A DNA stretch of 64,000 nt from Variovorax sp. RA8 (GTDB taxonomy: Bacteria; Pseudomonadota; Gammaproteobacteria; Burkholderiales; Burkholderiaceae_C): assembly GCF_901827175.1 (NCBI RefSeq), contig NZ_LR594662.1, forward strand, positions 806,001-870,000, read 5' to 3'. Position numbers and translations under genes: made by a program. The notes beneath the pieces were generated by a model. That model saw only the letters and a program-made list of their open reading frames with translations, made no database searches and was not told the DNA's origin. Positions within the stretch are counted from its first letter, which is position 1; each line of letters opens with the position of its first letter. Of this stretch, positions 28,263-49,727 are shown piece by piece.

Positions 28263-28832
28263 ATGGAAACCTACCCGGACCCTCGCACCAACCCCGCCCC
28301 GGAGGCATGGGTCGAGCAGTTGCGCATCGTCACCGCGGCCGGGCGCTTTCATGCCGGAGAGGTGTCGGTGCAGCGCGCGATCGGCGAATTGCTGAGCCTC
28401 GTGCGCGATCTGCTCCAGCTCGAGGTGGTGTTCGTCAGCGAGATCGTGGATGGCCGGCGCGTCTTCCGCCATATCGAGTCGCAGGACGGGACGGCGACCA
28501 TCCGTCCCGGCCAGTCCGCCCCGCTCGAGAAGACCATCTGCCAGCGCATCCTCGACGGCCGCATGCCGAACGTGGTACGCGACGTCAACGCCGTGCGCGA
28601 GGCACAGGGGCTGCCGCGCAACTTCGAGGGCATGGGCACGCACATCGGGGTGCCGGTCCGGATGGCGGACGGCAGGCTCTACGGCATGCTGTGCGGCTTC
28701 AACATGAGAGGCGTGACCGAGCTGGACGAGCGCGACGTGCGGCGCCTCGAAGTCGCCGCGGGTGCAGCCGCGCGCCTGCTCGCGAGCGCGGATGGGCGCG
28801 AACACACGCCTTTCGATCCCGCGCTGAGCTAG
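28263..28832 (+). CDS. GAF domain protein
   Basis: A 189-residue protein with one GAF domain over about residues 30-180. The N-terminal METYPDPRTNPAPEAW leader is followed by AIGELLSLVRDLLQLEVVFV and a SAPLEKTICQRILDGRMPNV segment, then GTHIGVPVRMADGRLYGMLC, as in phytochrome-like GAF sensors attached to EAL/GGDEF proteins. No output domain is present, so it is either a stand-alone ligand sensor or a remnant of a larger one. The ATG at 28263 is taken as the start because an upstream in-frame extension is not conserved-looking. The ligand is unknown. Confidence 0.85.
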   Translation: METYPDPRTNPAPEAWVEQLRIVTAAGRFHAGEVSVQRAIGELLSLVRDLLQLEVVFVSEIVDGRRVFRHIESQDGTATIRPGQSAPLEKTICQRILDGRMPNVVRDVNAVREAQGLPRNFEGMGTHIGVPVRMADGRLYGMLCGFNMRGVTELDERDVRRLEVAAGAAARLLASADGREHTPFDPALS

Positions 28833-28852
28833 CCCCGGCCTTCAGTCGGCCT

Positions 28853-29233
28853 TCAGTCGGCCTTCTCGGACGCGTCGAAGTCCAGCTCCACCTTGGCCCC
28901 GTTGGGGTCGTGGCAGAACAGCTGCCAGGTCCCGGCACCCGCCTGCCGCCGCAGCTCGTACTTCGTGCCGCTTTCATCGAAGCGCCCCTTCACCGTGCGC
29001 AGGTCGCGTGCCGTGAATGCCATGTGGTCGATCACGCCCGCGCGCTGCGCCGGCACGGGGCGGTCGAAGTAAAGGTGCACCAGCGCCTGCGGCCCCTCGC
29101 CGTAGAGCCAGGCCCCGGGGAAGCCGAGGTCCGGCCGGTGGCCGATCCGCAGCCCGAGCAGGCCGGTGTAGAAATCCAGCGTCTTCTTCTCGTCCTCCGC
29201 GATCACGGTGAAGTGGTTCATGCCGACGATCAT
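28853..29233 (-). CDS. VOC (glyoxalase/bleomycin-resistance) family protein
   Basis: A 126-residue vicinal-oxygen-chelate fold protein. The opening MNHFTVIAEDEKKTLDFYTG, the central VIDHMAFTARDL and the terminal FCHDPNGAKVELDF match the family, with candidate metal ligands His7, His74 and Glu122. Members include glyoxalases, dioxygenases and epimerases, so the reaction is undetermined. It is the last gene of the long minus-strand operon, 22 bases after the SRPBCC-oxidoreductase gene. A tandem 11-base duplication (CTTCAGTCGGC at 28840-28861) spans the stop codon. Confidence 0.88.
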   Translation of the reverse strand: MIVGMNHFTVIAEDEKKTLDFYTGLLGLRIGHRPDLGFPGAWLYGEGPQALVHLYFDRPVPAQRAGVIDHMAFTARDLRTVKGRFDESGTKYELRRQAGAGTWQLFCHDPNGAKVELDFDASEKAD

Positions 29234-29255
29234 GGGATGGCTCCTTCTTGGTTGT

Positions 29256-30719
29256 TCAGGGCAGCAGGACCAATGCGCCCAGCGTGGCGCGCGATTCGAG
29301 CCGCGCGTGCGCCTGCGCCGCGGCCTCCAGCGAATGGCGCTCGATCGGCGGCAACCGGATGCTGCCGTCGGCGAGCGCATCCCAGACGCGCTGCGCCCGC
29401 TCGGCCAGCTGCGCCTGGCTCGCCACGTAGTCGAACACCACCGGCCGCGAGAAGCTCAGCGACTTCGCGACCAGCGCATCGGGCGGCAGCGGCGCCAGCG
29501 GGCCGCTGGCCTGGCCGAGGCTGATCCAGTGGCCGCGTCGCGCCAGCGCCGCCAGGTTCTCGTCGCGGGCCGCATCGCCCAGGCCGTCGATCAGTACGTC
29601 GGCACCGCCGCAGGCGCGCTGCACGGCATCGGCGAAGCGGTAGTCGCGTGTGACGATCGCATGCTCGCAGCCGTGGTCGCGCGCGACGCGGGCCTTCTCC
29701 TCGCTGGATACCGTGCCCAGCACCGTCGCGCCCAGCCTGCGCGCCCAGGTGCAGACCAGCAGGCCCACGCCGCCGGCCGCCGCGTGCACCAGCAGCCGCG
29801 TGCCGCGCTGCACCCGGCCCAGGTCGTGCAGCAGGTAGTCGGCGGTGATGCCCTTGAGCAGCAGGGCGGCCGCGGTCTCGTCCTCGATCGCCGCGGGCAG
29901 GCGCACCACCCAGTCCGCCGGCACGCAGCGCACGCCGCAGTAGGCGCCGGGCGCCGGGCCGAGGTAGGCCACGCGATCGCCCGGCAGCAGTCCGCTCACC
30001 TGCGGCCCGACATCGAGCACGCTGCCCGCGGCCTCCATGCCCGGCACCAGCGGCAAGGCCGACGGGATCCAGCCGCGCCGCAGGTAGATGTCGATGAAGT
30101 TGACGCCGATCGCGCGCTGCCGGATGCGCACCTCGCCCGCGCGCGGCGCCGGGGCCTCGCCCTCCTGCGGGTGCAGCACCTCGGGGCCGCCGTGATGTTC
30201 GACCACCACGCGGCGCGTGGGCAGGGGCAGGGCGGCCGGCATCGCCTCCGAACTACCGCTCCCGCGCAGGTCGCCGCCCTGGCGCAGGTAGCGCCGCAGG
30301 TTCTCGAAACCCGTCTCGTACACGCCCTTCGCCACCATGTCGCGCAGCTCGCGCTCCATGCCGGGCGGCGTGGCAAAGCGCGATTCCCAATGCCAGAAAG
30401 TGCGGTTGCCGTCGGTCACCGTCTTCAGCGTGACGGTGGCCACGTAGCGCTGCAGCGGCACCGTCGCCTCGACGATGCAATAGGTGCTCTTGTGCTCGCT
30501 GTCCGACAGCGTCAGCAGCTGCTCGCGGATGCGGTTGCCGTCCCTGAGCGTGAAGCTGCGCACGCAGCCCACCTGGTCGCTGCGCTCGCCGCCCTCGATG
30601 CGGCTGGCCTCCACGGCCTCGTGCCACTGGTCGTGGCTGTTGAAATCGCGCAGCACCGCCCAGACGCGCTCGATCGGCGCATCGATGATGGTCGAGCGAA
30701 CGACGCGCTGCAGCATCAT
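29256..30719 (-). CDS. SRPBCC domain fused to quinone oxidoreductase (QOR/zeta-crystallin type)
   Basis: A 487-residue two-domain protein. Residues 1-150 form an SRPBCC (START-like) ligand-binding domain, with VWAVLRDFNSHDQWHEAVEA and YVATVTLKTVTDGNRTFWHW. Residues 165-487 form an NADPH-dependent quinone oxidoreductase with VNFIDIYLRRGWIPSALPLV and the nucleotide loop AAAGGVG at 313-319. A short linker (GSGSSEAMPAALPLPTRR) joins them, and an internal Met160 could serve as a start for the reductase alone. The N-terminal domain is clearly paralogous to the next upstream gene, which overlaps by one base. Both domains are intact, so this looks like a genuine fusion rather than a frameshift. The substrate is unknown. 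Confidence 0.9.
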   Translation of the reverse strand: MMLQRVVRSTIIDAPIERVWAVLRDFNSHDQWHEAVEASRIEGGERSDQVGCVRSFTLRDGNRIREQLLTLSDSEHKSTYCIVEATVPLQRYVATVTLKTVTDGNRTFWHWESRFATPPGMERELRDMVAKGVYETGFENLRRYLRQGGDLRGSGSSEAMPAALPLPTRRVVVEHHGGPEVLHPQEGEAPAPRAGEVRIRQRAIGVNFIDIYLRRGWIPSALPLVPGMEAAGSVLDVGPQVSGLLPGDRVAYLGPAPGAYCGVRCVPADWVVRLPAAIEDETAAALLLKGITADYLLHDLGRVQRGTRLLVHAAAGGVGLLVCTWARRLGATVLGTVSSEEKARVARDHGCEHAIVTRDYRFADAVQRACGGADVLIDGLGDAARDENLAALARRGHWISLGQASGPLAPLPPDALVAKSLSFSRPVVFDYVASQAQLAERAQRVWDALADGSIRLPPIERHSLEAAAQAHARLESRATLGALVLLP

Positions 30720-31159
30720 CAGCGATGCCCGAAGTGGCGCTTCAGCGCCTCGAAGCCTGCCTGGAAGACGCCTTGCCCAATCGACTCGGCGAGTTCACGC
30801 TCGCGGCCCTCGTCGCACTCGAACTCCGCGCTCCACTCCGCAAAGCAGCGCCCCCCGTCCGTCACCGGCGTGAGCTTGAGCGTGGCGATGTAGTTCGCCA
30901 CGCCCATCGGGCTCTCGAGGATCTCGTAGCTGCAGCTGTACTCGTAGTCCGACAGGGCCAGCAAGCGCTCGCGGATGGCGCCCCCGTCCTTGGTGTGGAA
31001 CTGCCGGATACAGCCCACGCGGTCCGCCGGCTGCCCGTTCTCGATGCGGCTGTCCGCGATCGACGGGTGCCATTGCGGCAGGCCGTTGAAGTCGCGAATG
31101 CGCGACCACACGTTGTCGGCGCTGGCATCGATGACGCTCGAGACATAGACCTGCACCAT
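30719..31159 (-). CDS. SRPBCC family protein
   Basis: A 146-residue stand-alone SRPBCC domain protein, binding hydrophobic ligands in a helix-grip fold and often acting as cyclase, aromatase or carrier. It shares RDFN, QWH, SRIE, VGC, LSD and PVTDG/TVTDG landmarks with the N-terminal domain of the downstream fusion protein. Its stop shares one base with the fusion gene's start. It begins 3 bases after the flotillin gene ends. The pair may act on the same ligand, one binding and the other binding and reducing (inference). Confidence 0.9.
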   Translation of the reverse strand: MVQVYVSSVIDASADNVWSRIRDFNGLPQWHPSIADSRIENGQPADRVGCIRQFHTKDGGAIRERLLALSDYEYSCSYEILESPMGVANYIATLKLTPVTDGGRCFAEWSAEFECDEGRERELAESIGQGVFQAGFEALKRHFGHR

Positions 31160-31162
31160 CCC

Positions 31163-32863
31163 TCATTCCTTCTTCTTGCCGACGCCGGAAAGCAGCGCAG
31201 CCTGCGTGCCCGCGGGGTCGCCCACCAGGCGCTGGATATCGCCGCCTTCGATGCCGATCTCGCGTAGCAGCTGGTCCACCAGCGGCGCCTGCGCGCGGAA
31301 GCGCAGCGCGGAGTTCACCAGCCCGTCGGCAAAGCCCCCGTTCGCGTCGCCGTTGGGAATGCCCCCGTGCGACCCGCCTCCGCCCAGTCCCTCCACATGC
31401 AGGATCTTGATGCCCTCGATGCGCTCCATCGGCCGCACCGACTCGCGGATGATGGCCTCGGCCTTCTCCACCAGCTTCATGCGCAGCGCCGACATGCGGG
31501 CATCGGCCGACAGCATGTTGTGCGCCTCGTTCATCATGCGCTGCGCCTCGGCCTCGATCTCGGCGCGCACGCGCATCGCCATCGACTTGATCTTGTCCGC
31601 ATCGGCATCCGCCTCGGCCTGGGCGCGCAGCGCGGCGCCACGGTCGGCGCTGGCCTCCTTCTCGGCCTGCGCGGCGGTCGTCAGGCGCAGCGCATCGCGC
31701 TCGGCCGCCTGGGCCGCGCCGATCAGCTCGATGGCCTTCCTGCGCTCGGCCATCTCCACCTCGCGTGCGGTGAACACCTTCTCCTCGGCAGAGACGGCCT
31801 GTGCGCGCGCGGATTCCGCCTCGGCCTGGGCCTCGCTCTGCGCCTTGCTCTCGCGCGCCACCGCGATTGCGCGCTGCTGCTCGGCCAGCTCCAGCGACAG
31901 CCGGCGCTCGATCTCGGCGCCCTGGATCGCGCGCTCCTTGGCGATGCGCTCCTGCTCGATGGTCTGCTCGGCCCGGATGCGGGCGGCGTCGATGCTCTGC
32001 TTGGCCGCGATCTGCGCGCCCTCGGCGTCCTGGTCGCGCTGGGCCCGCTCGGTCGCCAGTTCGGCGCGCTGGCGGGCGCGCGCGATCTCCACTTCGCGCT
32101 GCTGCGTGAGGCGCGCGTGCTCGCCCTCGCGGTCGATCTCCAGCGAGAGCTTCTCGGCTTCGAGGTTCTTGTTGCGGATCGCGATCAGCGTGTCCTGCTC
32201 GACATCGTTGCGCTGCTTCTTGCGATGCTCGATCTGCTCGGTCAGGCGCGTCAGGCCCTCGGCGTCGAAGGCGTTGCTCGGGTTGAAGAACTCCATGCCG
32301 GTCTGGTCCAGCTGCGTCAGCGAGGCGGCCTCCAGCTCCAGGCCGTTCTTGGTCAGGTCCTCGGCCACCGATTCGCGCACCGACTTCACGTAGGCGCCGC
32401 GCTTCTCGTGCAGCTGCTCCATCGTCATCTCGGCGGCGGCGGTGCGCAGGGCATCGACGAACTTGCCCTCGACCAGCTCCTTCAGCTGCTCGGGCTCCAT
32501 GGTGCGCAGGCCCAGGGTCTGCGCGGCCGCGGCGACCGCGTCGGGATGGGCAGCCACCCGCACGTAGAACTCGGCGATCACGTCGACGCGCATGCGGTCC
32601 TTGGTGATGAGCGCCTTGTCGCGGCCGCGGCTCACCTCGAGCCGCAGCGTGTTCATGTTGACGGGGATCACGTCGTGCACGATGGGCAGCACGAAGGCGC
32701 CGCCGTCGAGCACCACCTTCTGCCCGCCCAGGCCGGTGCGCACGAAGGCCCGTTCCTTCGAGCTGCGCAGGTAGAGCCAGTGGAGCAGCCAGACCGCGAT
32801 CGCGACCACGATCGCGACCACGATCAGCCCCAGGATGAAGTTGCCGAATTGAGCGCCTGACAT
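31163..32863 (-). CDS. flotillin/YqiK-like SPFH membrane protein
   Basis: A 566-residue flotillin family protein. A single N-terminal transmembrane helix (about residues 9-31) is followed by an SPFH/band-7 domain (about 40-200, with KALITKDRMRVDVIAEFYVR) and a long Ala/Glu/Arg/Gln-rich coiled coil (about 230-460). The C-terminal region is Gly-rich. Flotillins organise membrane microdomains and oligomerise. It starts 18 bases after the TIM-barrel gene and has GAGGAGA upstream, so it appears to be co-transcribed with the catabolic genes, an unusual setting. A direct pathway role is not shown. Confidence 0.92.
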   Translation of the reverse strand: MSGAQFGNFILGLIVVAIVVAIAVWLLHWLYLRSSKERAFVRTGLGGQKVVLDGGAFVLPIVHDVIPVNMNTLRLEVSRGRDKALITKDRMRVDVIAEFYVRVAAHPDAVAAAAQTLGLRTMEPEQLKELVEGKFVDALRTAAAEMTMEQLHEKRGAYVKSVRESVAEDLTKNGLELEAASLTQLDQTGMEFFNPSNAFDAEGLTRLTEQIEHRKKQRNDVEQDTLIAIRNKNLEAEKLSLEIDREGEHARLTQQREVEIARARQRAELATERAQRDQDAEGAQIAAKQSIDAARIRAEQTIEQERIAKERAIQGAEIERRLSLELAEQQRAIAVARESKAQSEAQAEAESARAQAVSAEEKVFTAREVEMAERRKAIELIGAAQAAERDALRLTTAAQAEKEASADRGAALRAQAEADADADKIKSMAMRVRAEIEAEAQRMMNEAHNMLSADARMSALRMKLVEKAEAIIRESVRPMERIEGIKILHVEGLGGGGSHGGIPNGDANGGFADGLVNSALRFRAQAPLVDQLLREIGIEGGDIQRLVGDPAGTQAALLSGVGKKKE

Positions 32864-32881
32864 GAATGAGGTCTCCTCTGT

Positions 32882-33712
32882 TTATCGCGTGATCTGGACG
32901 AAGCGGCGCGTGGTCTCCATCAGCGCCGTTTCGGTGGGCAGCCGCTCCATCGAGCTGGCGCCGTAGAAGCCGTGGCACGCGGGGCAGCGGGCGAGCACAT
33001 GCCGCGCGTCATCGGGCGTGGCGATGGGGCCGCCGTGGCACAGCACGATGGCTTGCGGGTTCACCGCATGCGCCGCCGCCGCCCAGGCGTTGATGCGGCC
33101 CACGCAGTCGTCCAGCGTGAGCGCCGTCTCCGCGCCGATCGCTCCGCCGGTGGTGAGGCCCAGGTGGCACACGATGATGTCCGCGCCGGCCGCGGCCATG
33201 GCGTGCGCATCGGCCTCGCTGAACACGTAGGGCGTGGTCAGCAGGTTCATCGCGTGGGCGCGCGCGATCAGCTCGACCTCCAGCGCGTACCCCATGCCGG
33301 TTTCCTCGAGGTTGGCGCGAAAGGTGCCGTCGATCAGCCCCACCGTGGGAAAGTTCTGCACGCCGGAGAAGCCCAGCGATATCAGCCTCCGCAGGAACTC
33401 CTCCGGGATCATGAAGGGGTCGGTGCCGTTGACGCCCGCCAGCACCGGCGTGTGCTTCACCACCGGCAGCACCTCGTGCGCCATCTCGCAGACGATCTCG
33501 TTGGCGTTGCCGTAGGCGAGCAGGCCCGCCAGCGAGCCGCGGCCGGCCATGCGGTAGCGGCCCGAGTTGTAGATCACGATCAGGTCGATGCCGCCGGCCT
33601 CCTCGCACTTGGCCGAGAGGCCCGTGCCGGCGCCGCCGCCGATGATCGGCCGGCCGTCGGCAATCTTCGCGTGGAAGCGTTCGAGCAGCGTGGATCGGGC
33701 GATGCGGGGCAT
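32882..33712 (-). CDS. phosphoenolpyruvate hydrolase-like TIM-barrel protein
   Basis: A 276-residue TIM-barrel protein of the family annotated as phosphoenolpyruvate hydrolase-like or TIM-barrel signal-transduction protein. Landmarks are [56 protein letters not shown] and [14 protein letters not shown]. In plant Tm-1 proteins this barrel is joined to an N-terminal Tm-1-like domain. In this genome it is a separate gene five bases after the one carrying that domain. The ATG at 33712 is fixed by the [17 protein letters not shown] start. The reaction is not established for this family. Confidence 0.9.
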
Positions 33713-33717
33713 GGTCG

Positions 33718-35996
<2,279 letters not shown>

Positions 35997-35997
<1 letters not shown>

Positions 35998-36812
35998 CAG
36001 TGCCGGCTCCCCATGTAGATGGCCTGCACCTCGGCATCGTTCTCGATCTCCTCGGGGCTCCCGGTGCGCAGCGTGCGGCCGTTGTGCATCACCGTGACCT
36101 TCTCGGTCACGCGCAAGGCGATGTCGAGGTCGTGCTCGATCAGGACGAAGCTCATGTGCGCCGGCAGCGAGCGCAGCAGCGCCACCAGCTCGCGCCGCTC
36201 GGCCGGCGAGAGGCCGGCGGCCGGCTCGTCGAACAGGATCAGGCGCGGCGCCCCCGCCAGCGCCATGCCGATCTCGAGCTGGCGCTGCTGGCCATGGGCC
36301 AGGTTGGCCACGCGTTCATCGGCCAGATGGGCCAGCCGCGTGCGCTCCAGCAGATCCTGCGCCGCGAGCGTGGAGGCATGCCCCCGACCGGCCCGCAGGA
36401 GGCCGAAGCGGCCGCTCGCGACGCCGCGCACCGCGAGGAAGAGGTTGTCGCGCACCGTCAGTTCGCGGAACAGCAGGGACGATTGATAGGTGCGCCGCAG
36501 CCCCTTGCGGATGCGCTCGAAGGGAGGCAGCGCGGTGATGTCCTCGCCGAAGAAATGGATGCGGCCGGCGGTGGGCGGGAAGTCGCCGGTGATGGCGTTG
36601 AAGAGTGTGGTCTTGCCCGCGCCGTTGGAGCCGAGGATCGCGTACTTCTGGCCGGCCGCGACGGTGAGCGACACATCGTCGACCGCGCGCAGTGCGCCGA
36701 AGGCGCGCGTCACCCCCGCCAGGCGCAGCGCATCGCCCGACAGCAGCTGCGCGCCGCCGCCGCTGCCGCTGCTGCGCGGCACAGGCGGCCGCAGGGAAGT
36801 GATCGTGGCCAT
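35997..36812 (-). CDS. branched-chain amino acid-type ABC transporter ATPase (LivG-type)
   Basis: A 271-residue ABC ATPase. Walker A GSNGAGKT is at residues 61-68, the signature is the variant [17 protein letters not shown], Walker B is [13 protein letters not shown] and the H-loop is [10 protein letters not shown]. Residues 1-28 are a Ser/Gly/Pro-rich leader without homology to the domain. It follows the binding-protein gene by 22 bases and overlaps the LivF-Tm-1 fusion gene by one base. It is the LivG partner of the second transporter. The cargo is probably the substrate of the operon's hydrolases. Confidence 0.93.
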
Positions 36813-36834
36813 CGTGCCGCGCGCTTTCTCGCCC

Positions 36835-38088
36835 CTACTTGCGGCAGTCCGGGACGTCGCGCGTGCCCAGGCCCATCTTCTTGAACTCCGCTTCGGGCAA
36901 GCCCAGCGTCTGCGAGATGTCGGGGACCGACTTCACCACCTTGTTGTAGAAGGAGCCGTCCGGCGCCTTCGTCACCTCGGTGATGTAGGTGGTGCCGACG
37001 CCGTTGCGGTTGGCATCGATCTTCACCGGGCCGGCCGGGCCCTTGAAGTTCGTCTTCTGCAGCGCGTCCCGGTACGCCTTCTGCCCGCCGGAAAGATCGC
37101 CCTTGACCGCATCGAGCGCATCGAGTGCGGCCTTGGTGTTGATGTAGTAAAGGTACGCGAACAGCGACGGGCTGGGGAAGCCGTCCTTGAAGTTGGCCTT
37201 GTAGTCGGCCACGAACTTCTTCCACTCGGGCGTGTCGATCGAATCGGCCATCGGGCCCGCGGAGGCGGTGCCCAGCAAGGACTCGCGGCGCTTGCCCTTG
37301 AAGTTGAGCACCGTCTGGTCCACCGTGATGGAGCCGCCGATCATCGGCTTGTCGCCGCCGGCCTGCTCGTACTGCGTGAGGAAGTTCACCGCGTCCGAGC
37401 CGCCCAGCACCACCACCAGCGCGTCCACGTCCTTCGGGATCTTGGCGATCACCGAGGCATAGTCCTTGGTGCCGAGCGGCACCCAGGCCTTGTCCACCAC
37501 CTTGCCGCCCTTGGCGCAATAGCTGGCCATGAAGCCCTGCACCTGCGAATAGGGGAAGCCGTAGTCCTCCGCGATCAGGAAGGTCTTCTTGTAGCCCTTG
37601 GACAGCGCGTGCTCGCCCAGGCCCACCATCCACTGCGCGCCCTCGGTGTTGAAGCGGTAGAAGTTGGGCGCCGGGTCGGTCAGCGTCGCCGCCTGCGCGC
37701 CGGAGGAGCCGTTGATGAAGGTGATGTTGGGCTGCGTCTTGGCGTAGTTCTTGACCGCGATGCCTTCGTCACCCGACAGCGGGCCGATCATGACCTGCAC
37801 CTTGTCCTGCTCCACCGCCTTGCGCGTGGCGTTGACCGCCTTGTCGGGCGTGGCGTCGGAGGACACCTTGACGAACTCGATCTTCTTGCCGCCGGCCATG
37901 CCGTTCTTCTGCTTGAGCGCAAGCTCCGCGCCGCGCATGCCGTCCTGGCCCGGTGCCGCGAAGGGGCCTTCCAGCGAGGCCAGCAGGCCGACCTTGAGGG
38001 TCTCCTGCGCCTGCGCCAGGCCGACCGCCGCGATCAAGGCCGCGGCGCCGACGAGGCTGCGTCCGAACACTCTTCTGCTTGTCTTCAT
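36835..38088 (-). CDS. branched-chain amino acid-type ABC transporter substrate-binding protein
   Basis: A 417-residue periplasmic binding protein of the Peripla_BP_6 type. A signal peptide (MKTSRRVFGRSLVGAAALIA, cleaved near AQAQ at residue 28) precedes ETLKVGLLASLEGPFAAPGQ. The RR near the start could allow Tat export but the pattern is weak. FKRKAVEQ-type hinge segments and a paired Cys near the C-terminus (VPDCRK) are present. Its start overlaps the LivM-type gene's stop by four bases. It is only distantly like the binding protein at 20401, so it should bind a different ligand. Confidence 0.93.
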   Translation of the reverse strand: MKTSRRVFGRSLVGAAALIAAVGLAQAQETLKVGLLASLEGPFAAPGQDGMRGAELALKQKNGMAGGKKIEFVKVSSDATPDKAVNATRKAVEQDKVQVMIGPLSGDEGIAVKNYAKTQPNITFINGSSGAQAATLTDPAPNFYRFNTEGAQWMVGLGEHALSKGYKKTFLIAEDYGFPYSQVQGFMASYCAKGGKVVDKAWVPLGTKDYASVIAKIPKDVDALVVVLGGSDAVNFLTQYEQAGGDKPMIGGSITVDQTVLNFKGKRRESLLGTASAGPMADSIDTPEWKKFVADYKANFKDGFPSPSLFAYLYYINTKAALDALDAVKGDLSGGQKAYRDALQKTNFKGPAGPVKIDANRNGVGTTYITEVTKAPDGSFYNKVVKSVPDISQTLGLPEAEFKKMGLGTRDVPDCRK

Positions 38089-39260
38089 GTCTCGCTCCTG
38101 GTTGTCATTGATGAACGAATACGGCCGAGGCCGCGGGCGGTGAACGGGCCGCCTAGGCGCGTGCGCAGGCTCTGCCACAAACCCAGCAGCCCATCGGGGG
38201 AGAACAGGACGATGGCGAGGAACACGCCGCCGATGACGAGGTTGAAGCGCTCGCGGTCGACCAGGTCGATCGCGAAGTTCTGCAGGAGCACGAACACGAT
38301 CGCGCCGACGAAGGCGCCGATCGGGTGCTTCATGCCGCCGAGCACGGCGATGATGAGGATGTTGATCATCGCGCCGGTGCCGACCGTGCCGGGCGAGATG
38401 CGGCCGTTGTACCAGACCATCAGCACGCCGCCGACTGCCGCGAGGAATCCCGCCACGGCATAGGCGGCGACCCGGTGCGCGGTCACGTCGTAGCCGAGCG
38501 CCGACATGCGGCGCGGGTTGTCGCGGATGCCTTGGAGCGCCACGCCGAAGGGAGCGCGCACCAGGTACTTGACGAAGAAGTAGCCGCCGAGCGCGCACGC
38601 CAGCGCCAGGAAGTAGAAGGGCAGGGGCTCGCGCAGGTCGAGCTCGAAGAGCGTCGGCGCCGCGATGCGGCTGAAGCCCTGGAAGCCGTTGAAGAGCGTG
38701 TAGTTCTGCTGAGCCAAGTAGAAGAAGGCCACGCCGACCGCCAGCGTGATCATGATGGTGTAGATGCCCTCTGTGCGCACCGAGAGCCAGCCCACCGCCG
38801 CGGCGAACAGCGTGGCGAGCGCGACGGCGATCCCCAGCGCCAGCCACCAGGGCCAGCCCAGGCTGATCGCGACGTTGCTGCTGGTGCCGAAGATGGCCAG
38901 CATGTAGGCCGCGAAACCCGCCACCGTCATCTGCGCCAGCGACACCATGCCGCCATAGCCGCCGAGGAAGGTGAGCGAGAGCGCGATCAGGCCGAGCGCG
39001 AGCGATTGCGCGCCGATCTGGAAAGTGAAGAAGGGCGAGGCGAAGAAGGGGTAGGCGAGGACGAAGGCCATGACGATGACATGGCGCGGGCGGATCGCGC
39101 CCAGCACATCGCGCAGCCGCTGCGCCCAGCCTGCGCCGGTCGGCACGGCGACCGCGCCTGGTGCCGGGGCCGGCCGCAGCGGCGCCGTGCCGGACGGCCG
39201 CCGCGCCGCGCTCGCCGCCGCCGAGGAATTCATCGCCCGTCGCCATTGAGCGGCGCTCAT
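38085..39260 (-). CDS. branched-chain amino acid-type ABC transporter permease (LivM-type)
   Basis: A 391-residue LivM-family inner-membrane permease. About ten hydrophobic spans follow a 50-residue Ala/Pro-rich cytoplasmic leader. Family signatures are LSLTFLGGYGGMVSLAQMTV, GVALQGIRDNPRRMSALGYD and VLGGMKHPIGAFVGAIVF. The ATG at 39260 starts 13 bases after the LivH-type gene; an internal start nearer the first membrane span is possible given the unconserved leader. It should pair with the LivH-type gene product. Confidence 0.92.
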   Translation of the reverse strand: MSAAQWRRAMNSSAAASAARRPSGTAPLRPAPAPGAVAVPTGAGWAQRLRDVLGAIRPRHVIVMAFVLAYPFFASPFFTFQIGAQSLALGLIALSLTFLGGYGGMVSLAQMTVAGFAAYMLAIFGTSSNVAISLGWPWWLALGIAVALATLFAAAVGWLSVRTEGIYTIMITLAVGVAFFYLAQQNYTLFNGFQGFSRIAAPTLFELDLREPLPFYFLALACALGGYFFVKYLVRAPFGVALQGIRDNPRRMSALGYDVTAHRVAAYAVAGFLAAVGGVLMVWYNGRISPGTVGTGAMINILIIAVLGGMKHPIGAFVGAIVFVLLQNFAIDLVDRERFNLVIGGVFLAIVLFSPDGLLGLWQSLRTRLGGPFTARGLGRIRSSMTTRSET

Positions 39261-39273
39261 GGTGCCCCCACGC

Positions 39274-40215
39274 TCATGATGCCTTCCCCATCAGCCCGCG
39301 CGGCTTGAAGGCCAGCGCGACGACCATGATCACGAAGGTAAAGACCACGCTGTAGGTCGGCGCGTAGGCCTGGCCGAACTGCTCGGCGAGCCCGATCAGC
39401 AACGCGCCGATCGCGGCGCCCACCACGCTGCCCATGCCGCCCACGATCACGACCACCAGCGAGGCCAGCAGGTAGCGCGTGTCCTCGCCCGGCGAGATCG
39501 ACAGTGCCGTGCCGCCGACCACGCCGGCGAGGCCGGCGAGGCCGGCACCGATCGCGAAGGTCAGGGCAAATACGCGCTGCACGTTGACCCCCGAGGCCGC
39601 GAGCATGCCGCGGTCGTCCACGCCGGCGCGGATCATCATGCCGATGCGGGTGCGCGCCAGCAGCAGCCACAGGCCGACGCCGATCAGGATCGAGGCGAGC
39701 AGCACGAACAGGCGATAGGTCGGAAACTTGTCGACCAGCGGCAGCGTGGTCGAGCCGTAGATCCAGGCCGGCGGGTCGAAGGTGTAGATCTCGGCACCCC
39801 AGATCCACAGCGCGACGTCGGCCAGCACGATCGAAAGGCCGATGGTCACCAGCGTCTGCCGCAGGTCCTGCCCCTGCATGTGGCGGAACACCAGCAGCTG
39901 CATGAGCAGGCCCAGCACCGCGGCCGACAGGAAGCCAGCGAACACGGCCAGCACCCAGGAGCCGGTGCGCTCGCCCACCATCCAGCCGACGTAGGCGCCG
40001 ATCAGGTAGAGCGAGCCGTGCGCCAGGTTGACGTTGCGCATCAGCCCGAAGACCAGGGTGAAGCCGCTGGCGACCAGGAAGTAGAGGGAAGCCAGCGTCA
40101 GGCCGTTGAGCAGGGTCTTGAAGAAAAGCGGCGAGTTGTCGGCGACGGCCCAGGCCGCGAACACCGCGACGGGCAGGCCGAACAGCAGCCACGGGATCCA
40201 GCGCGACTTCTTCAT
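39274..40215 (-). CDS. branched-chain amino acid-type ABC transporter permease (LivH-type)
   Basis: A 313-residue LivH-family inner-membrane permease with about eight to nine hydrophobic segments. LLNGLTLASLYFLVASGFTL and FGLMRNVNLAHGSLYLIGAY are family hallmarks near the N-terminus, and VVIVGGMGSVVGAAIGALLI lies near the C-terminus. It carries an additional N-terminal hydrophobic segment (IPWLLFGLPVAVFAAWAVA) compared with the livH at 14780. It lies 70 bases after an amidohydrolase gene, which puts hydrolases and transporter in one transcript. Confidence 0.93.
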   Translation of the reverse strand: MKKSRWIPWLLFGLPVAVFAAWAVADNSPLFFKTLLNGLTLASLYFLVASGFTLVFGLMRNVNLAHGSLYLIGAYVGWMVGERTGSWVLAVFAGFLSAAVLGLLMQLLVFRHMQGQDLRQTLVTIGLSIVLADVALWIWGAEIYTFDPPAWIYGSTTLPLVDKFPTYRLFVLLASILIGVGLWLLLARTRIGMMIRAGVDDRGMLAASGVNVQRVFALTFAIGAGLAGLAGVVGGTALSISPGEDTRYLLASLVVVIVGGMGSVVGAAIGALLIGLAEQFGQAYAPTYSVVFTFVIMVVALAFKPRGLMGKAS

Positions 40216-40285
40216 GGAGTACCTTCGCCTTCGGCTGCGGTGCCGTGCTCCACCACGCCACAGCAGCGGGTTGACACAGGATGTC

Positions 40286-41569
40286 TCATGCGGCGCGCTC
40301 CCAGGTCCGCTGCGAGGCGACTTCCGGCGCCTTGGCGAACTCGCCGTCCTTCATCACCGCCAGGATGCGCTTCGGGTCGCGCAGGATCGCCAGGTTGGCC
40401 AGCGGGTCGCCGTCGACCAGCAGCAGGTCCGCGAGGTAGCCGTCCTGGATGGTGCCGAGCTCGTCGCCGCGCTTCATGATCTGGCCGCCGTAGAGCGTGG
40501 CGCAGCGGATCGCCTCCATCGGCGTGAAACCCAGGTAGCGCACGAAGAACTCCAGGTCGCGCGCGTTCTGGCAGTGCGGCGTGAAGGCGAAGCCGTAGTC
40601 GCCCCCGGGCAGGATGCGCACGCCGCGCCGGTGCATGGCCTTGAGCGATTCGAGCGCCGCATCCCATTCGACCTGGTAGCCCATCGCCACCGCCTTGTCG
40701 TGGGTGATCCCGAAGGGCTCGGCCTCGTGCAGCATGGCGTACAGGATGGCGATGCCGGGGGCGACGAAGATGCGGTCCTTCGCCGCCTCCAGCATGTCCA
40801 GCGTCTCCTCGTCGGTGAAGCTGGCGTGGTAGATCACCTCGATGCCGTGGCGCAGTGCCTGCTTGACGGACGCGGCCGAGCGCGCATGCGCGGTGCCGCG
40901 CTTGCCGCGCACGCGGACCTCCTCCATCGCGGCGGCCACCTCGGCGTCGCTCATCCAGGTGGTGTCGGCCGGCGAGTCGGGCGTGAAGTTGTCGCCCGAG
41001 AGGTTGAGCTTGATCGAATCGACGCCGTACTTGAGGAACATGCGCACGACCTTGCGCATCTCGTCCGCGCAGTTCACGTTGACGCCGAAGCTGAACTCGG
41101 GGAAGGGCAGGTGCGGCAAGGTCTCGTCGCCCAGGCCGCCCGGCACGGTGATCTCCTGGCTCGCCGCCAGGTAGCGCGGGCCGGGGATCTGGCCGGCGTT
41201 GATGGCATTGCGGATCACCACGTCCAGCCGCGGCTTGGCGCAGGCGGCCCCGACGCAGGAGGTGAAGCCGGCCTCCAGGTATCGCCTGGCGACCTTTGCG
41301 CACCACAGGACGTGTTCCTCCAGCGGCATGCGCTGGATCGCCGACAGCGTGGCCGCGTCGTTCCAGGAGAAATGCGTATGGGCCTCGCACATCCCGGGCA
41401 TCAGCGTGGCGCCGGCGCCGTCGACCACCATGGCGCCGCCGGGTGCGATCGGGGCTGTGCTGCGGCCCACCTGGCGGATGCGGTTGCCGCGGACCAGCAC
41501 GCTGCCGGTGTAGGGGTTCTGGCCCGTACCGTCGAGGATACGGACGTTGGTGAAGACGACATCGCTCAT
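40286..41569 (-). CDS. metal-dependent amidohydrolase, paralogue A
   Basis: A 427-residue cytoplasmic amidohydrolase-superfamily enzyme. The HxH metal motif is EAHTHFSW (His64, His66), then further candidate ligands occur in KLNLSGDNF, GTAHARSAASVK and VIYHASFTDEE, and a GGDYGFAFTPH segment holds the usual Asp/His near residue 320. The family includes imidazolonepropionase- and prolidase-like hydrolases acting on cyclic amides or C-N bonds. The ATG at 41569 is the first with a sensible VVFTNVRILDG N-terminus. It shares most landmarks with the next upstream gene, so the pair arose by duplication. Confidence 0.92.
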   Translation of the reverse strand: MSDVVFTNVRILDGTGQNPYTGSVLVRGNRIRQVGRSTAPIAPGGAMVVDGAGATLMPGMCEAHTHFSWNDAATLSAIQRMPLEEHVLWCAKVARRYLEAGFTSCVGAACAKPRLDVVIRNAINAGQIPGPRYLAASQEITVPGGLGDETLPHLPFPEFSFGVNVNCADEMRKVVRMFLKYGVDSIKLNLSGDNFTPDSPADTTWMSDAEVAAAMEEVRVRGKRGTAHARSAASVKQALRHGIEVIYHASFTDEETLDMLEAAKDRIFVAPGIAILYAMLHEAEPFGITHDKAVAMGYQVEWDAALESLKAMHRRGVRILPGGDYGFAFTPHCQNARDLEFFVRYLGFTPMEAIRCATLYGGQIMKRGDELGTIQDGYLADLLLVDGDPLANLAILRDPKRILAVMKDGEFAKAPEVASQRTWERAA

Positions 41570-41635
41570 GTGCTTCTCCCGTTTGACTCCCTGTCCCGGA
41601 GGGAGAGGGAACAAGACAGCGAACCCGGTGCCATC

Positions 41636-42925
41636 TCAAGCCGCCCAGCGCGTCATGTGCGCGCGCCGCACCGGCGGCGCACGGTGGAACTCGCCGTCCT
41701 TCATCACCGCCAGGATCCGGGCCTTGTCCTGCAGCACCGTGATGTCGGCCAGCGGATCGCCGTCGATCAGCAGCAGGTCGGCGAGATAGCCTTCGCGCAC
41801 ATAGCCCAGCACCTTGCCCATGCGCATCATCGGCGCGCCCCAGGCGGTGGCCGACAGCAACGCTTCCATGGTGCTCATGCCGACGTACTTGACGAAGTAC
41901 TCCAGGTCCCTGGCGTTGGTCCCGTGCGGCGTCCATGCAAAGCCGTAGTCGCCGCCGGGCAGGATGCGGATGCCCCGCTTGCGCATCGCCCGCATGCTCT
42001 CGACGGCGGCCTCGAGCTCGCGGTGGTAGCCCATGCGCCGCGTCACCTCGGGCGTCAGTCCCCATTCGCTTGCGTGATGGCAGGTGTTGATCAGCCAGGC
42101 CAGGCCGGGCGCGATGAAGTGCTCGAACTTGTGCGCCTCGAGCATGTCCAGCGCCTCCTCGTCGGTGAAGCTGGCGTGGTAGATCACCTCGATCCCGTGC
42201 CTCACGCACTGCTTGATCGACCAGGTCGAGCGCGCATGCGCCGCCACCCGCTTGCCCCAGGCCTTGGCCTCCTGCACGCACACCGTGATCTCTTCCTCGG
42301 TGAACTGGCTCATCTCGCTGGACATGCCGGTGATGGACTCGCCCGAGAGATTGATCTTCAGCGAGTCCACGCCGTACTTGGCGAACATGCGCACGCAGCG
42401 GCGCATCTCCTCGGCGCCGCTGACCACGGCGCCGAAGGCGAACTCGGGCTGCGGCAGGTGCGGCTGGGTGGTGTCTCCCAAGCCGCCCGGCACGGTGATC
42501 TCCTGGCTGGCGGCCAGGTAGCGCGGGCCGATGATGGTCCCGTCGGCGATGGCGTTGCGGATGACCACGTCAAGCCGAGGCTTGGCCGCGGCGGCGCCCA
42601 CGCAACTGGTCCAGCCCATGTCGAGATAGCGCTTCGCGACCTCGGCGCACCAGAGGATGTGCTCCTCCGGCGGCATGCGCTGGATGGCATCCAGGCTGGG
42701 CTGGTCGTTCCACGAGAAGTGCGTGTGCGCCTCCACCATGCCGGGCATGAGGAAGGCGCCGGCGCCGTCGATCGTCTGCGCGCCCATGACCGGCGCGGCG
42801 CGCTGCCCGTAGCCCGTCTTGACGACGCGTGCGATGCGGTTGCCCTGCACCAGCACGTCGCCGGTGAAGGGCGCCTCGCCGCCGCCGTCGAAGACACGGA
42901 CATTGGTGAAGAGAACGTCCGCCAT
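41636..42925 (-). CDS. metal-dependent amidohydrolase, paralogue B
   Basis: A 429-residue paralogue of the enzyme at 40286. HxH is EAHTHFSW (His67, His69). KINLSGESI, RVAAHARSTWSIK, VIYHASFTDEEALDMLEAHK and GGDYGFAWTPH mirror the other copy, as does the closing ADLLLIDGDPLADI block. The two proteins are similar along their full length but differ in the segment after the metal site (INTCHHASEWGLTPEVTRR here), which could alter substrate choice. It lies 66 bases before paralogue A and 4 bases after an alpha/beta hydrolase gene. Confidence 0.92.
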   Translation of the reverse strand: MADVLFTNVRVFDGGGEAPFTGDVLVQGNRIARVVKTGYGQRAAPVMGAQTIDGAGAFLMPGMVEAHTHFSWNDQPSLDAIQRMPPEEHILWCAEVAKRYLDMGWTSCVGAAAAKPRLDVVIRNAIADGTIIGPRYLAASQEITVPGGLGDTTQPHLPQPEFAFGAVVSGAEEMRRCVRMFAKYGVDSLKINLSGESITGMSSEMSQFTEEEITVCVQEAKAWGKRVAAHARSTWSIKQCVRHGIEVIYHASFTDEEALDMLEAHKFEHFIAPGLAWLINTCHHASEWGLTPEVTRRMGYHRELEAAVESMRAMRKRGIRILPGGDYGFAWTPHGTNARDLEYFVKYVGMSTMEALLSATAWGAPMMRMGKVLGYVREGYLADLLLIDGDPLADITVLQDKARILAVMKDGEFHRAPPVRRAHMTRWAA

Positions 42926-42929
42926 GGTT

Positions 42930-43727
42930 TCAGCTCCTCGCGTTCGCGGCCAGGAAGTCGCGCAGCTCGCGCTGGCATTCGTCGGGACGCTCGACCGGCG
43001 TCCAGTGGCCGCAACGCGACAGCACCACCACGCGCTTGCGCGCCGCGTTGTGCAGCCGGTCGGCCATGGCGCGCACCGACTGCGGCGGCGCCACGCCGTC
43101 CTCGTCGCCGGTGACCAGCAGCACCGGCGCCTCGATGCGCTCCACTGCCGCGGCCTGCGCGCCGGCCAGCGCCTCGCAGCTGCGCGCATAGGCCTCGCCT
43201 TCCTGCCGCATCAGGCTCTCGCGCACGAAGGCCACGGCGAGCGGCAGGCGCTGGCGCGTGTCGGCGGAGACCGCGGCCTGGAGCAACCCCTGCGTGATCT
43301 CGTGCATCCCGGCCGCGCCTTCGCGGGCCCTGGCGGCGCGCGCCTTCATCGCCGTGCGCGCGGCGTCCGGCGGCGCGATCAGCGGGCCGAAGAGGGCGAC
43401 GCTCGCCGCCAGCTTGGGGTGCGCGGCCGCGATGTGCTGGCAGACGATGGTGCCCATCGAATGCCCCACCCAGTGGGCGCGCGCGACGCCGAGGCGATCG
43501 CAGATGCGCAGCAGCACTTCGACGTAGCGTTCGATCGAGAGCTCGCCCTCGGCCCGCTGCGAACGCCCGCTGCCCGGCAGGTCCACGCGCAGCACGCGGT
43601 GCCGCGCCAGCGCAGGCATCAGCGGCGTGAAGCTGTTGGAGCTGCCGCCGAGGCCGTGGACGCAGACCACGGCCGGGCCTTCGCCTTCCTCTTCCACCGC
43701 GACACGGTCGATCAGTTGGAATGACAT
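42930..43727 (-). CDS. alpha/beta hydrolase
   Basis: A 265-residue alpha/beta hydrolase resembling the carboxylesterase/C-C hydrolase group. The oxyanion region is VHGLGGSS, the nucleophile elbow VGHSMGT contains Ser90, the acid lies in TGDEDGVAPP, and the histidine is in SRCGHWTPVE. There is no signal peptide. It sits 12 bases after the FAH-family gene and 4 bases before amidohydrolase B. Such enzymes hydrolyse lactones, esters or ring-cleavage products; which of these cannot be told. Confidence 0.92.
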   Translation of the reverse strand: MSFQLIDRVAVEEEGEGPAVVCVHGLGGSSNSFTPLMPALARHRVLRVDLPGSGRSQRAEGELSIERYVEVLLRICDRLGVARAHWVGHSMGTIVCQHIAAAHPKLAASVALFGPLIAPPDAARTAMKARAARAREGAAGMHEITQGLLQAAVSADTRQRLPLAVAFVRESLMRQEGEAYARSCEALAGAQAAAVERIEAPVLLVTGDEDGVAPPQSVRAMADRLHNAARKRVVVLSRCGHWTPVERPDECQRELRDFLAANARS

Positions 43728-43739
43728 CGTCGGGCCTGC

Positions 43740-44606
43740 CTACTCGAAGGGGTTCTCGATGACGCCCACGCCATCGATCTCGATGCGCACCACGTCGCCG
43801 GACTTCAGCCACTGCGGCGGTGTCTGCCCCATGCCAACGCCGGCCGGCGTGCCGGTGGCGATCACGTCGCCGGGGTGGAGCGTGATGCCGCGCGAGCAGG
43901 TCTCGATCAGCGTGGGGATGTCGAAGATCATGTCCCGGGTCTGGCCGTCCTGGCGCAGCGCGCCGTTGACCCAGCCGCGCACGCGCGTGGCGCGGCCGTC
44001 GAGTTCGTCGGCCGTCACGATCCACGGGCCCATGGGGCAGAAGCCGTCGAAGCTCTTGCCCAGCTCCCATTGCTGGTGGCGCATCTGCACGTCGCGCGCG
44101 GTCACGTCGTTGACCACCGTGTAGCCGAACACATGGTCCATCGCGCGCGACCGCGGGATGTCGCGCCCGCCGCTGCCGATGACCACCGCGAGCTCCGACT
44201 CGTAGTCGATCTGCACCGAGGTGGCGGGCGAGGGCAGGCGCACCACGTCGCGCGGACCGATCACGCATTCGCCCAGCTTGCCGAAGACGATGGGCCAGGG
44301 GTCGCTCTGCGGCATGGACTCGCGGAACACGGTGCCGGCGAGCTCGCTGGCATGCGCGCGGTAATTGCGACCGACGCAGAACAGGCTGCGCAGCGGGCGC
44401 GGCAGCGGCGCGCGCAGCGTGAGGACCTCGACCGGCAGCCGGGCGCCGGAAGGGGAGGGCAAGGGTTCGTCGCGCGCGAGCGCCTGGATCAGCGGCAGCA
44501 CGCCGGCCGATGCGTCGCGCACGGCCAGCGGCGTGGCCTCGCGGCCGTCGGCCGAGACCATGCCCGCGTAGTCGCGGCCGCCCCAACTCCAGCTTGCCAG
44601 GCGCAT
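43740..44606 (-). CDS. fumarylacetoacetate hydrolase (FAH) family protein
   Basis: A 288-residue FAH-superfamily enzyme, hydrolysing or hydrating/decarboxylating beta-diketo or 2-oxo acids with a divalent metal. The LFCVGRNYRAHASELAGTVF segment, the metal ligands in DYESELAVVIGSGG, and VVNDVTARDVQMRHQQWELG with FDGFCPMGPW are diagnostic. GVGMGQTPPQWLKSGDVV closes the domain. It is the first gene of the long operon, starting at 44606, with the TetR gene divergent 175 bases away. Fumarylpyruvate, acylpyruvate or homoprotocatechuate-type substrates are possible. Confidence 0.94.
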   Translation of the reverse strand: MRLASWSWGGRDYAGMVSADGREATPLAVRDASAGVLPLIQALARDEPLPSPSGARLPVEVLTLRAPLPRPLRSLFCVGRNYRAHASELAGTVFRESMPQSDPWPIVFGKLGECVIGPRDVVRLPSPATSVQIDYESELAVVIGSGGRDIPRSRAMDHVFGYTVVNDVTARDVQMRHQQWELGKSFDGFCPMGPWIVTADELDGRATRVRGWVNGALRQDGQTRDMIFDIPTLIETCSRGITLHPGDVIATGTPAGVGMGQTPPQWLKSGDVVRIEIDGVGVIENPFE

Positions 44607-44682
44607 CGCCGTTGTCTCCGTCTTGTCTCGAATGTCATGCGGGGCTCGCGCCGCGCCGCCTCGAGATCAGGGAATCGTGGTT

Positions 44683-44702
44683 TTTGAGACTTGCGTCTCA
44701 AA
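44683..44702. promoter_or_regulatory. putative TetR operator between tetR and the 14-gene operon
   Basis: TTTGAGAC-TTGC-GTCTCAAA is a perfect inverted repeat with 8-base arms. It lies 77 bases upstream of the FAH gene start and 80 bases upstream of the TetR ATG, midway in the only divergent gap of the region. Its form fits a TetR dimer site controlling both promoters. Binding is inferred from symmetry and position. Confidence 0.75.
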
Positions 44703-44781
44703 TCGGGATCGGTGCATCATACGTGCCGAGCTCGGCACTCCACAAGCAAGGCAAAGCCCTTCCGCACTCCGTACAAACCCC

Positions 44782-45492
44782 ATGACGCGACTGAAGCACA
44801 AGCTGAGCGAACCTCCGGTGCCGCCCGAGCGCGGCGTCAAGGCGGCGACCTTCAAGCTGCTGCTCGATACCGCCATGGACATCATCCGGCAGAGCGGCCA
44901 TATCCCTTCGGTGGCGGAGGCGGCGGCGCGCTCGAAGGTCTCGCGCGCCACGGCGTATCGCTATTTCCCGAGCCGCAGCGCGCTGGTCACGGCTGTCATC
45001 GACAGCTCGCTGGGGCCGGTGCGCAGGCTGGCTTCCGACAACCCGAGCGGCCGCGAGCGGGTGCACGAGCTGTTCCTGCAGACCTTCCCGCGCTTCAAGG
45101 AATTCGAGGCCCAGCTGCGCGCCGCCGCCCAGCTCTCGCTCGAGCAGTGGGGGCTCGAGCGCGCCGGGCTGCTGGAGGAGGAGCCTTACCGGCGCGGCCA
45201 TCGCGTGCGCATCCTCGAGCACGCGATCGAGCCGCTGGTGCCGCAGCTGCGGCCCGCCGTGCGCAAGCGGCTGCACCATGCCCTGTCGGTGGTGTACGGC
45301 ATCGAGCCCTACGTGATCCTGAAGGACATATGGGGCCTCGGCGACCGCGAGGTCGAGCGCACCGCGCTGTGGATGGCCGATGCGCTGATCGATGCGGCGC
45401 TGCGCGAGTCCGAGCAGAAGCCCGCGTCCAGCGGCCGCCCGAAGCCGAACGGTGCACGGGTGCCGGCAGCGGCCGCTGCGAAGCGGCGCTGA
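44782..45492 (+). CDS. TetR-family transcriptional regulator
   Basis: A 236-residue TetR-type regulator. The HTH is at about residues 21-68, with AMDIIRQSGHIPSVAEAAAR and KVSRATAYRYFPSRSALVTA. The C-terminal effector domain is helical and the last 25 residues form an unstructured Pro/Ala/Lys tail. The ATG at 44782 is preferred; the frame is open upstream through the intergenic palindrome. It diverges from the 14-gene operon and is its likely repressor, with a perfect palindrome between them. The inducer would be a pathway substrate or CoA-free intermediate (inference). Confidence 0.92.
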   Translation: MTRLKHKLSEPPVPPERGVKAATFKLLLDTAMDIIRQSGHIPSVAEAAARSKVSRATAYRYFPSRSALVTAVIDSSLGPVRRLASDNPSGRERVHELFLQTFPRFKEFEAQLRAAAQLSLEQWGLERAGLLEEEPYRRGHRVRILEHAIEPLVPQLRPAVRKRLHHALSVVYGIEPYVILKDIWGLGDREVERTALWMADALIDAALRESEQKPASSGRPKPNGARVPAAAAAKRR

Positions 45493-45527
45493 ATGCGGCC
45501 GAAGTTTCGCCGCAGCTGTGCCTGAAC

Positions 45528-49703: not shown

Positions 49704-49727
49704 GCCCGGGAGGCAGGGGAAGCGGCC

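Follow-up and report, generated by a model that had tools for sequence, protein, structure and literature searches.

Gene content and fused genes of the operon

The DNA analyzed here (the window) is a 64,000-nucleotide stretch of Variovorax sp. RA8 (contig NZ_LR594662.1, positions 806,001–870,000), in which fourteen minus-strand genes occupy positions 28853–44606. The set is a patchily distributed yet intact unit, and it is also modular, with parts that travel or swap separately. It combines a liv-type ATP-binding cassette (ABC) importer with putative catabolic enzymes, and in one of its genes the importer ATPase LivF is joined to a UPF0261 domain. The original prediction of fourteen minus-strand genes with gaps of -4 to 70 bases was confirmed by the coordinates; from 44606 down to 28853, the gaps between genes were 12, 4, 66, 70, 13, -4, 22, -1, 5, 18, 3, -1, and 22 bases, with gene starts being our choice.

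44782–45492, plus strand: divergent TetR-like regulator, 236 amino acids (PF00440, E 4e-6)
44607–44781, no strand: divergent intergenic region, presumed promoter/operator from position only
43740–44606, minus strand: FAH-family hydrolase (FAA_hydrolase PF01557, E 5.4e-72; motifs DYESE and NDVTARD)
42930–43727, minus strand: alpha/beta hydrolase, ABH (Abhydrolase_1 PF00561, E 3.5e-34; motif GHSMG)
41636–42925, minus strand: amidohydrolase AH1 (Amidohydro_1 PF01979, E 1.5e-26; motifs HTH, K, H, H, D)
40286–41569, minus strand: amidohydrolase AH2 (Amidohydro_1 PF01979, E 1.5e-24)
39274–40215, minus strand: LivH permease (BPD_transp_2 PF02653, E 1.1e-40)
38085–39260, minus strand: LivM permease (BPD_transp_2 PF02653, E 9.6e-37)
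36835–38088, minus strand: LivK-type substrate-binding protein (Peripla_BP_6 PF13458, E 1.4e-54)
35997–36812, minus strand: LivG ATPase (ABC_tran PF00005, E 2.5e-31)
33718–35997, minus strand: LivF ATPase-UPF0261 fusion, 759 amino acids (PF00005, E 3.5e-26; PF06792, E 1.6e-60; PF23189, E 5.7e-91)
32882–33712, minus strand: TIM barrel, phosphoenolpyruvate-hydrolase-like, TBST (PEP_hydrolase PF09370, E 4e-130; solved relative 2p10, E 1.8e-125)
31163–32863, minus strand: flotillin/SPFH protein (Flot PF15975, E 8.6e-33; Band_7 PF01145)
30719–31159, minus strand: SRPBCC protein 1 (Polyketide_cyc2 PF10604, E 1.4e-28)
29256–30719, minus strand: fusion of SRPBCC2 with an NADPH:quinone-oxidoreductase-like part, 487 amino acids (PF10604; ADH_N PF08240; ADH_zinc_N PF00107)
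28853–29233, minus strand: VOC/glyoxalase-fold protein (Glyoxalase PF00903, E 4.5e-8)

A divergently oriented homologue of the TetR-like regulator was present in 13 of the 14 loci with enough upstream DNA. A site scan of the operon region, including 44607–44781, found no sigma-70-like site, and terminator-like sites were not in excess in 28700–45000 (4 on the two strands together, compared with 5.2, SD 2.4, in shuffled sequence).

The importer set is complete, with a substrate-binding protein, two BPD_transp_2 permeases, and two ABC_tran ATPases, and thus has all five parts of the LIV/HAAT importers (LivKHMGF). It departs from them in that LivF carries approximately 500 extra residues and that LivH and LivK fall into two exchangeable classes. 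The binding protein scored under the curated cut-offs of its three matching NCBIfam models (two urea, one LIV); its nearest solved chains were 4zpj (the closest), 4evq, and 4ey3. The chains 4evq, 4ey3, and 4f06 bind benzoate derivatives. Among the enzymes, ABH has 3-oxoadipate enol-lactonase as its closest solved relative (2xua, E 1.3e-26). The two amidohydrolases had been called paralogous, and they share 62% identity over 422 columns; the AH1 motifs are presumably metal ligands. The TIM-barrel protein is 94–97% identical to several named Variovorax proteins.

Two of the genes are fusions that had not been recognized. The Tm-1-like (UPF0261) and TIM-barrel genes were indeed present as the pair first described, but the Tm-1-like part had been overlooked as an extension of LivF: ABC_tran (residues 34–170) and UPF0261 (residues 358–749) lie in one frame. 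Likewise, two SRPBCC domains and a quinone oxidoreductase were all found, but the second SRPBCC domain and the oxidoreductase share a single frame, as they did in all 77 loci that had both. LivF adjoined UPF0261 in 97 of the 111 loci having both, and the two formed a stop-free single frame in 93 of these 97, a number that includes the degenerate locus L171. At L171:15225–17408, LivF is fused to a decayed UPF0261 part, which is possibly a pseudo-kinase. Also among the 93 are loci of another class of the phylum (L145, L149, L153–L156, and L162, probably Alphaproteobacteria), and the fused frame was open over the part tested on alphaproteobacterial plasmids of Shinella zoogloeoides (731 codons) and Yoonia (721 codons). 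The linker of approximately 100 residues is variable, but short motifs are kept in it (TRW/NRW, and VxTVxRA in Burkholderiales), so it appears to be translated. Records of V. paradoxus VAI-C and Yoonia label the fused gene "ABC transporter permease," an annotation that the function proposed below, if true, would correct.

Conservation as a unit and exchange of modules

Public genomes were scanned with the UPF0261 part as the query, and the best 80 of 213 encoded relatives were analyzed. All 80 loci were labeled Burkholderiales or metagenome bins, two of the bins having unlikely species labels. Gene order was conserved across these best 80 of 213 loci beyond chance. Counting only slots covered by the available DNA, twelve parts occupied every slot: ABH (61/61), AH1 (63/63), LivH (68/68), LivM (70/70), LivK (74/74), LivG (77/77), LivF (79/79), the TIM barrel (79/79), flotillin (74/74), SRPBCC1 (71/71), SRPBCC2 (69/69), and the oxidoreductase (68/68). 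The exceptions were FAH (48/49), AH2 (64/66), and VOC, and all sixteen domains were present in 34 loci. Some genomes were counted twice (e.g., L092 and L103, or L179 and G760), so these counts are of loci and not of independent events.

Co-occurrence was also assessed in 101 genomes of the genus, including that of the window. AH1 at 85% identity or more was found in 30 of them, and UPF0261 at 80% or more was found in the identical 30. In 28 of the 30, the two lay on one contig and strand, 6.5–7.5 kb apart; in the remaining two, they were on different contigs. Together with the 80 loci, these data back the original prediction that uptake and hydrolysis genes form one conserved unit. The whole was strongly co-conserved in the loci and the genus examined, but independence of the parts, which that prediction had set against co-conservation, was also found, since parts occur on their own as modules.

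The first such module is FAH-ABH-amidohydrolase. In nine of ten plasmid regions besides that of VAI-C, FAH and ABH lay within approximately 9 kb of an amidohydrolase, and none of these had LivF-UPF0261. The nine plasmids belong to Pantoea, Pseudomonas, Cupriavidus, Azospirillum, Paraburkholderia, Corynebacterium, Alicyclobacillus, Priestia, and Peteryoungia; in the tenth region, from Rhodococcus, the module was not found. A GntR/FadR/FCD regulator accompanied it in eight of the nine, often with a major facilitator superfamily, liv, or sugar-type transporter. Further relative loci were viewed over approximately 20 kb each. In Variovorax loci with an amidohydrolase of 62–69% identity (L169–L173, L175, and L176), FAH and ABH were nearby in all seven and neither UPF0261 nor TIM was found in six; the L172 FAH is 46% identical and lies approximately 2 kb from ABH. 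The three Variovorax loci with the most distant amidohydrolases of the ten had FAH only (L174), both FAH and ABH (L177), or neither (L178). On Azospirillum argentinense p3 (L183:1–47001), FAH-ABH-DUF1636-amidohydrolase with its own liv importer sits approximately 20 kb from a UPF0261-TIM-SRPBCC cluster.

The second module is the core, comprising LivKHMGF with the fused UPF0261, flotillin, SRPBCC1, and SRPBCC2, which was found in nine loci from a different class. In six of these, the flavin adenine dinucleotide (FAD), 2Fe-2S, and molybdenum (Mo) subunits of a Mo hydroxylase accompanied a MadB-like AAA protein, and no match to FAH, ABH, an amidohydrolase, or the oxidoreductase reached E 1e-15, whereas the other three, which include L216 and L217, had those four enzymes and no Mo match at the same threshold. 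The Shinella and Yoonia plasmids belong to the Mo type. Like CO-dehydrogenase/xanthine-dehydrogenase-type clusters, several alphaproteobacterial versions of the core finish with the FAD, 2Fe-2S, and Mo subunits plus a MadB/MoxR-like AAA protein, to which Yoonia adds a CoxE-like protein. In contrast, no Mo hydroxylase was found in the window operon, and only 1 of the 80 Burkholderiales loci matched at E 1e-15, by its FeS subunit only. In the Mo-hydroxylase form (L154, L149, L145, L153, L155, L156, L222, and L223), a pair of consecutive genes matched the large subunit (592 and 340 amino acids in L154).

The third exchangeable part lies inside the importer. LivH and LivK (window 36835–40215; loci L019–L098) fell into two deeply separated classes, 27 A and 38 B among 65 loci (L075 left out), with zero discordance between the two proteins; both classes turn up repeatedly in operons that are alike in other respects. 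LivM, which lies between them, was not clearly separated by identity. Trees were built for 61 loci, without L065, L075, and L094. Class A was a single clade with support 1.0 in the LivH+LivK tree, but it required seven changes on the LivG+UPF0261+TIM tree of the same loci, by a parsimony count on one FastTree tree. In the genus member G710, AH1 is 100% and UPF0261 97% identical to the window, and LivH only 69%. The class pattern and G710 indicate that the specificity part of the importer appears to have been exchanged between lineages.

Relatives of the UPF0261 and TIM-barrel proteins

UPF0261/Tm-1-like proteins are reported from bacteria, archaea, fungi, and land plants in PMC5028733. The only functions that we found named for them are plant virus inhibitor and, by inference, MarK. 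The window protein matched both Pfam UPF0261 domains, N- and C-terminal, and the solved structures nearest in sequence were plant Tm-1 (3wry) and 9mpy. From its entry title, seen in the structural comparison, 9mpy is Saro_1862, a UPF0261 protein of Novosphingobium aromaticivorans with acetovanillone bound. In that species, acetovanillone catabolism begins with MarK, a single-component kinase, according to PMC13101465.

MarK is probably Saro_1862, an aromatic kinase; this is supported because the gene context of two close relatives resembles the enzyme kinds of the Hpe/Acv hydroxyphenylethanone pathway (HpeHI-HpeCBA-HpeD; AcvABCDEF). In L213, the genes after UPF0261 (69% identical to 9mpy) encode a biotin carrier, a biotin carboxylase, a carboxyltransferase-type protein, and an HAD phosphatase; in L203, carboxyltransferase-type, phosphatase, and AMP-ligase genes precede UPF0261 (53% identical). 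The Hpe carboxylase accepted only phosphorylated ketones, as stated in PMC9618137. The window operon would share ATP-dependent phosphorylation as the first step with Hpe/Acv, but that pathway uses a biotin-dependent carboxylase and an HAD phosphatase, and HpeHI, according to PMC12167813, is a two-component dikinase like rifampin phosphotransferase and not a UPF0261 protein.

A FastTree tree was built from 52 UPF0261 sequences, Tm-1 not among them. When rooted on the window protein, 9mpy and twelve TIM-less relatives formed a clade (support 0.95), within which 9mpy, L213, and L203 grouped together (0.999) alongside ten more relatives; none of the twelve loci gave a TIM match. The window protein is 43% identical to Tm-1 over the aligned part, from which its group was provisionally labeled Tm-1-type. 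Window and 9mpy proteins agree at 26 of 30 sites, which were picked post hoc among invariant columns and may or may not bind ATP or substrate. For the 9mpy group, a role as phosphotransferase is likely; for the group of the window protein, it is plausible.

In the window, UPF0261 adjoins the PF09370 TIM-barrel gene, as in the known pairing of Tm-1-like UPF0261 with TBST; in plants the two are fused to each other, whereas in this operon UPF0261 is joined to LivF, and TBST has a gene of its own. Among 398 genomes of the phylum, PF06792 was present in all 27 with PF09370, and ten more had UPF0261 (over the cut-off) without it. A published survey likewise gives UPF0261 in 491 of 504 bacterial genomes with TBST (PMC5028733). 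The predicted TIM model resembles phosphate-binding barrels, e.g., TrpA and IGPS, which would suit a protein acting on the phosphorylated product, but a great many barrels match it. At L163:12767–14944, beside a divergent UPF0261-TIM pair, one gene joins a PEP_hydrolase TIM barrel to a sigma-54 activator that has a Fis helix-turn-helix domain; this fused barrel may be a ligand sensor.

The gene order extends to another phylum. A Thermomicrobium roseum plasmid (L221:5923–21992) kept the order LivH, LivM, LivK, LivG, LivF, UPF0261, TIM, with LivF and UPF0261 as separate genes. Downstream of UPF0261 and TIM are genes for a GntR regulator, a Cyclase-family protein, a 323-amino-acid PPDK_N protein, a 564-amino-acid PEP-utilizers protein, FAH, an FAD subunit, and a Mo subunit. 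The best solved relatives of the 564-amino-acid protein are PEP synthase and rifampin phosphotransferase entries. The PPDK_N and PEP-utilizers proteins resemble HpeI and HpeH of the phenolic dikinase, as described in PMC12167813. These dikinase-like genes support phosphorylation chemistry in such clusters.

A proposed import and phosphorylation pathway and its alternatives

We propose that the genes form one modular catabolic operon that couples the import of a phenolic or enolic carbonyl compound to its phosphorylation and then hydrolyzes it, and give this a probability of about 0.45. Gene content, open fused frames, conservation, and modularity are directly established; from them we infer the kinase activity, substrate class, coupling, and order of steps. 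LivK would capture a small carbonyl compound, most likely phenolic or enolic and plant- or lignin-derived, a class suggested by analogy with 9mpy and with the solved relatives of the binding protein. LivHM, driven by LivG and LivF, would import it, and the LivF-tethered UPF0261 would probably use ATP to phosphorylate it at the importer's inner face, thereby trapping and activating it. The TIM barrel may then act on the phosphorylated product, while flotillin could hold the enzymes at a membrane patch. The SRPBCC domains might hold a hydrophobic intermediate for reduction by the SRPBCC-fused quinone oxidoreductase; the amidohydrolases, ABH, and FAH would cleave C-C, lactone, or amide bonds to give central metabolites. 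The divergent TetR-like regulator is presumed to sense the substrate. Phosphorylation of a phenolic or enolic substrate is the better-supported first step because of the acetovanillone-bound 9mpy structure and the Hpe-like neighbors of UPF0261 members.

Several observations weigh against this pathway. VOC is optional (present in 46 of 61 covered loci), AH2 is missing from 2 of 66, and six loci carry FAH on the opposite strand. When the 14 genes were all scanned against Pfam, none matched a biotin carboxylase, phosphatase, or CoA ligase. The closest solved chain to LivK being 4zpj also counts against it. Four of the 97 adjacent LivF-UPF0261 loci are not one open frame (one stop in L065; other frames in L075 and L094; a probably spurious pairing in L184). 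Free UPF0261 proteins of approximately 400–417 amino acids from Variovorax are recorded at NCBI; since strain JS1663 has both a 735-amino-acid fused and a 415-amino-acid free version, from contigs equal in length, an internal start yielding a free UPF0261 domain is possible, even though the DNA frame is open (L020).

Other objections concern the putative kinase and its partner. The window UPF0261 differs from MarK/Saro_1862: it is only 28% identical to 9mpy, lies outside its clade, is joined to a transporter ATPase, and has a TIM-barrel partner. TIM pairing itself crosses clades: under midpoint rooting, TIM-paired L163 and L164 fall on the side of 9mpy, and L114 sits at the root. TIM is missing from L216 and L217. 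Predicted models of UPF0261 and TIM had confidence (pLDDT) of 75.6 and 77.0, several conserved loops of the latter being weak. L171 kept LivF-UPF0261, flotillin, and FAH-ABH-amidohydrolase, but its UPF0261 is degenerate (9 of the 30 sites) and no TIM gene was found in the fetched stretch; this argues that not every version needs phosphorylation, and TIM loss and UPF0261 decay may be linked, on this one case only. Given the dikinase beside UPF0261 in T. roseum, the kinase there could be a protein other than UPF0261. Because that cluster combines FAH with Mo subunits, the two tails do not exclude each other in every case; in Yoonia, the Mo genes are followed by an Amidohydro_2 gene. Elsewhere, UPF0261-TIM pairs adjoin importers of the sugar or Bmp type and have cupin, Gfo/Idh, or SRPBCC partners, which leaves room for a non-aromatic substrate.

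One alternative, which follows the original prediction of import, ring opening, and hydrolysis of a cyclic or amide-bearing compound, has the operon take up an N-heterocycle, a lactam, or an amide and simply hydrolyze it, UPF0261 and TIM being accessory proteins. Two amidohydrolases with the expected motifs fit this, as do their nearest solved relatives (arginine carboxypeptidase, Xaa-Pro dipeptidase, amide hydrolase, and ochratoxinase types). Eight fused-core loci also have a Mo hydroxylase of the xanthine-dehydrogenase type, and N-heterocycles are frequent substrates of such hydroxylases. However, the structural relative of UPF0261 holds an aromatic ketone, nothing that we found points to nitrogen in the substrate, and the amidohydrolases could instead open lactones, as members of their superfamily also do. 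We consider plain hydrolysis of a nitrogen compound unlikely.

About equally improbable is that UPF0261 and TIM are not metabolic enzymes and form a sensory or regulatory module on the transporter, reading cytoplasmic substrate and gating import. The barrel fused to a sigma-54 activator in L163 indicates that it can be a sensor, the LivF fusion persists in L171 after the loss of most chosen sites, and T. roseum has another kinase. Plant Tm-1, moreover, directly inhibits virus RNA replication (PMC5028733). Conversely, free UPF0261 proteins occur in catabolic clusters with a carboxylase and phosphatase and no other kinase among the genes scanned, and 9mpy binds a catabolic substrate. Least likely is that the operon holds two independent functions, FAH-ABH-amidohydrolase for one compound and the importer-UPF0261-TIM-flotillin-SRPBCC core for another: the former does occur without LivF-UPF0261 on plasmids and without UPF0261/TIM in six Variovorax loci, and the core with a Mo hydroxylase instead, but the three-to-six split of the nine other-class loci looks like alternative tails of one pathway, and, in the 101 genomes, AH1 and UPF0261 were found in one identical set of 30.

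A bolder form of the coupled import and phosphorylation that we favor is group translocation by an ABC importer. The LivF-joined kinase would phosphorylate each molecule as it leaves the channel, a trap like that of the phosphotransferase system, and lineages would change uptake by swapping the permease/binding-protein part while the kinase and downstream enzymes stay constant; we regard this as rather doubtful. If the proposed pathway is true, UPF0261/Tm-1-like proteins would be carbonyl- or phenol-directed kinases with a TIM-barrel partner, and an ABC transporter would couple import to phosphorylation, in a pathway that can be tested in an easily grown soil genus. The original prediction that no named pathway has this combination agrees with a full-text literature search, which most subscription papers lay outside and which found neither such a pathway nor a name for the LivF-UPF0261 fusion or the operon. 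The individual parts are already known; what may be new, as far as that search reaches, is an importer ATPase fused to a probable kinase, together with the exchangeable modules.

Flanking the operon on the plus strand (45495–46463 and 48672–51179) are an aldehyde dehydrogenase and additional alpha/beta hydrolases (BD-FAE-like and Abhydrolase_1). On the minus strand at 24226–26196, a 656-amino-acid frame has RHS/YD-type repeats and an RHS-core-like end, as judged by eye from the translation.

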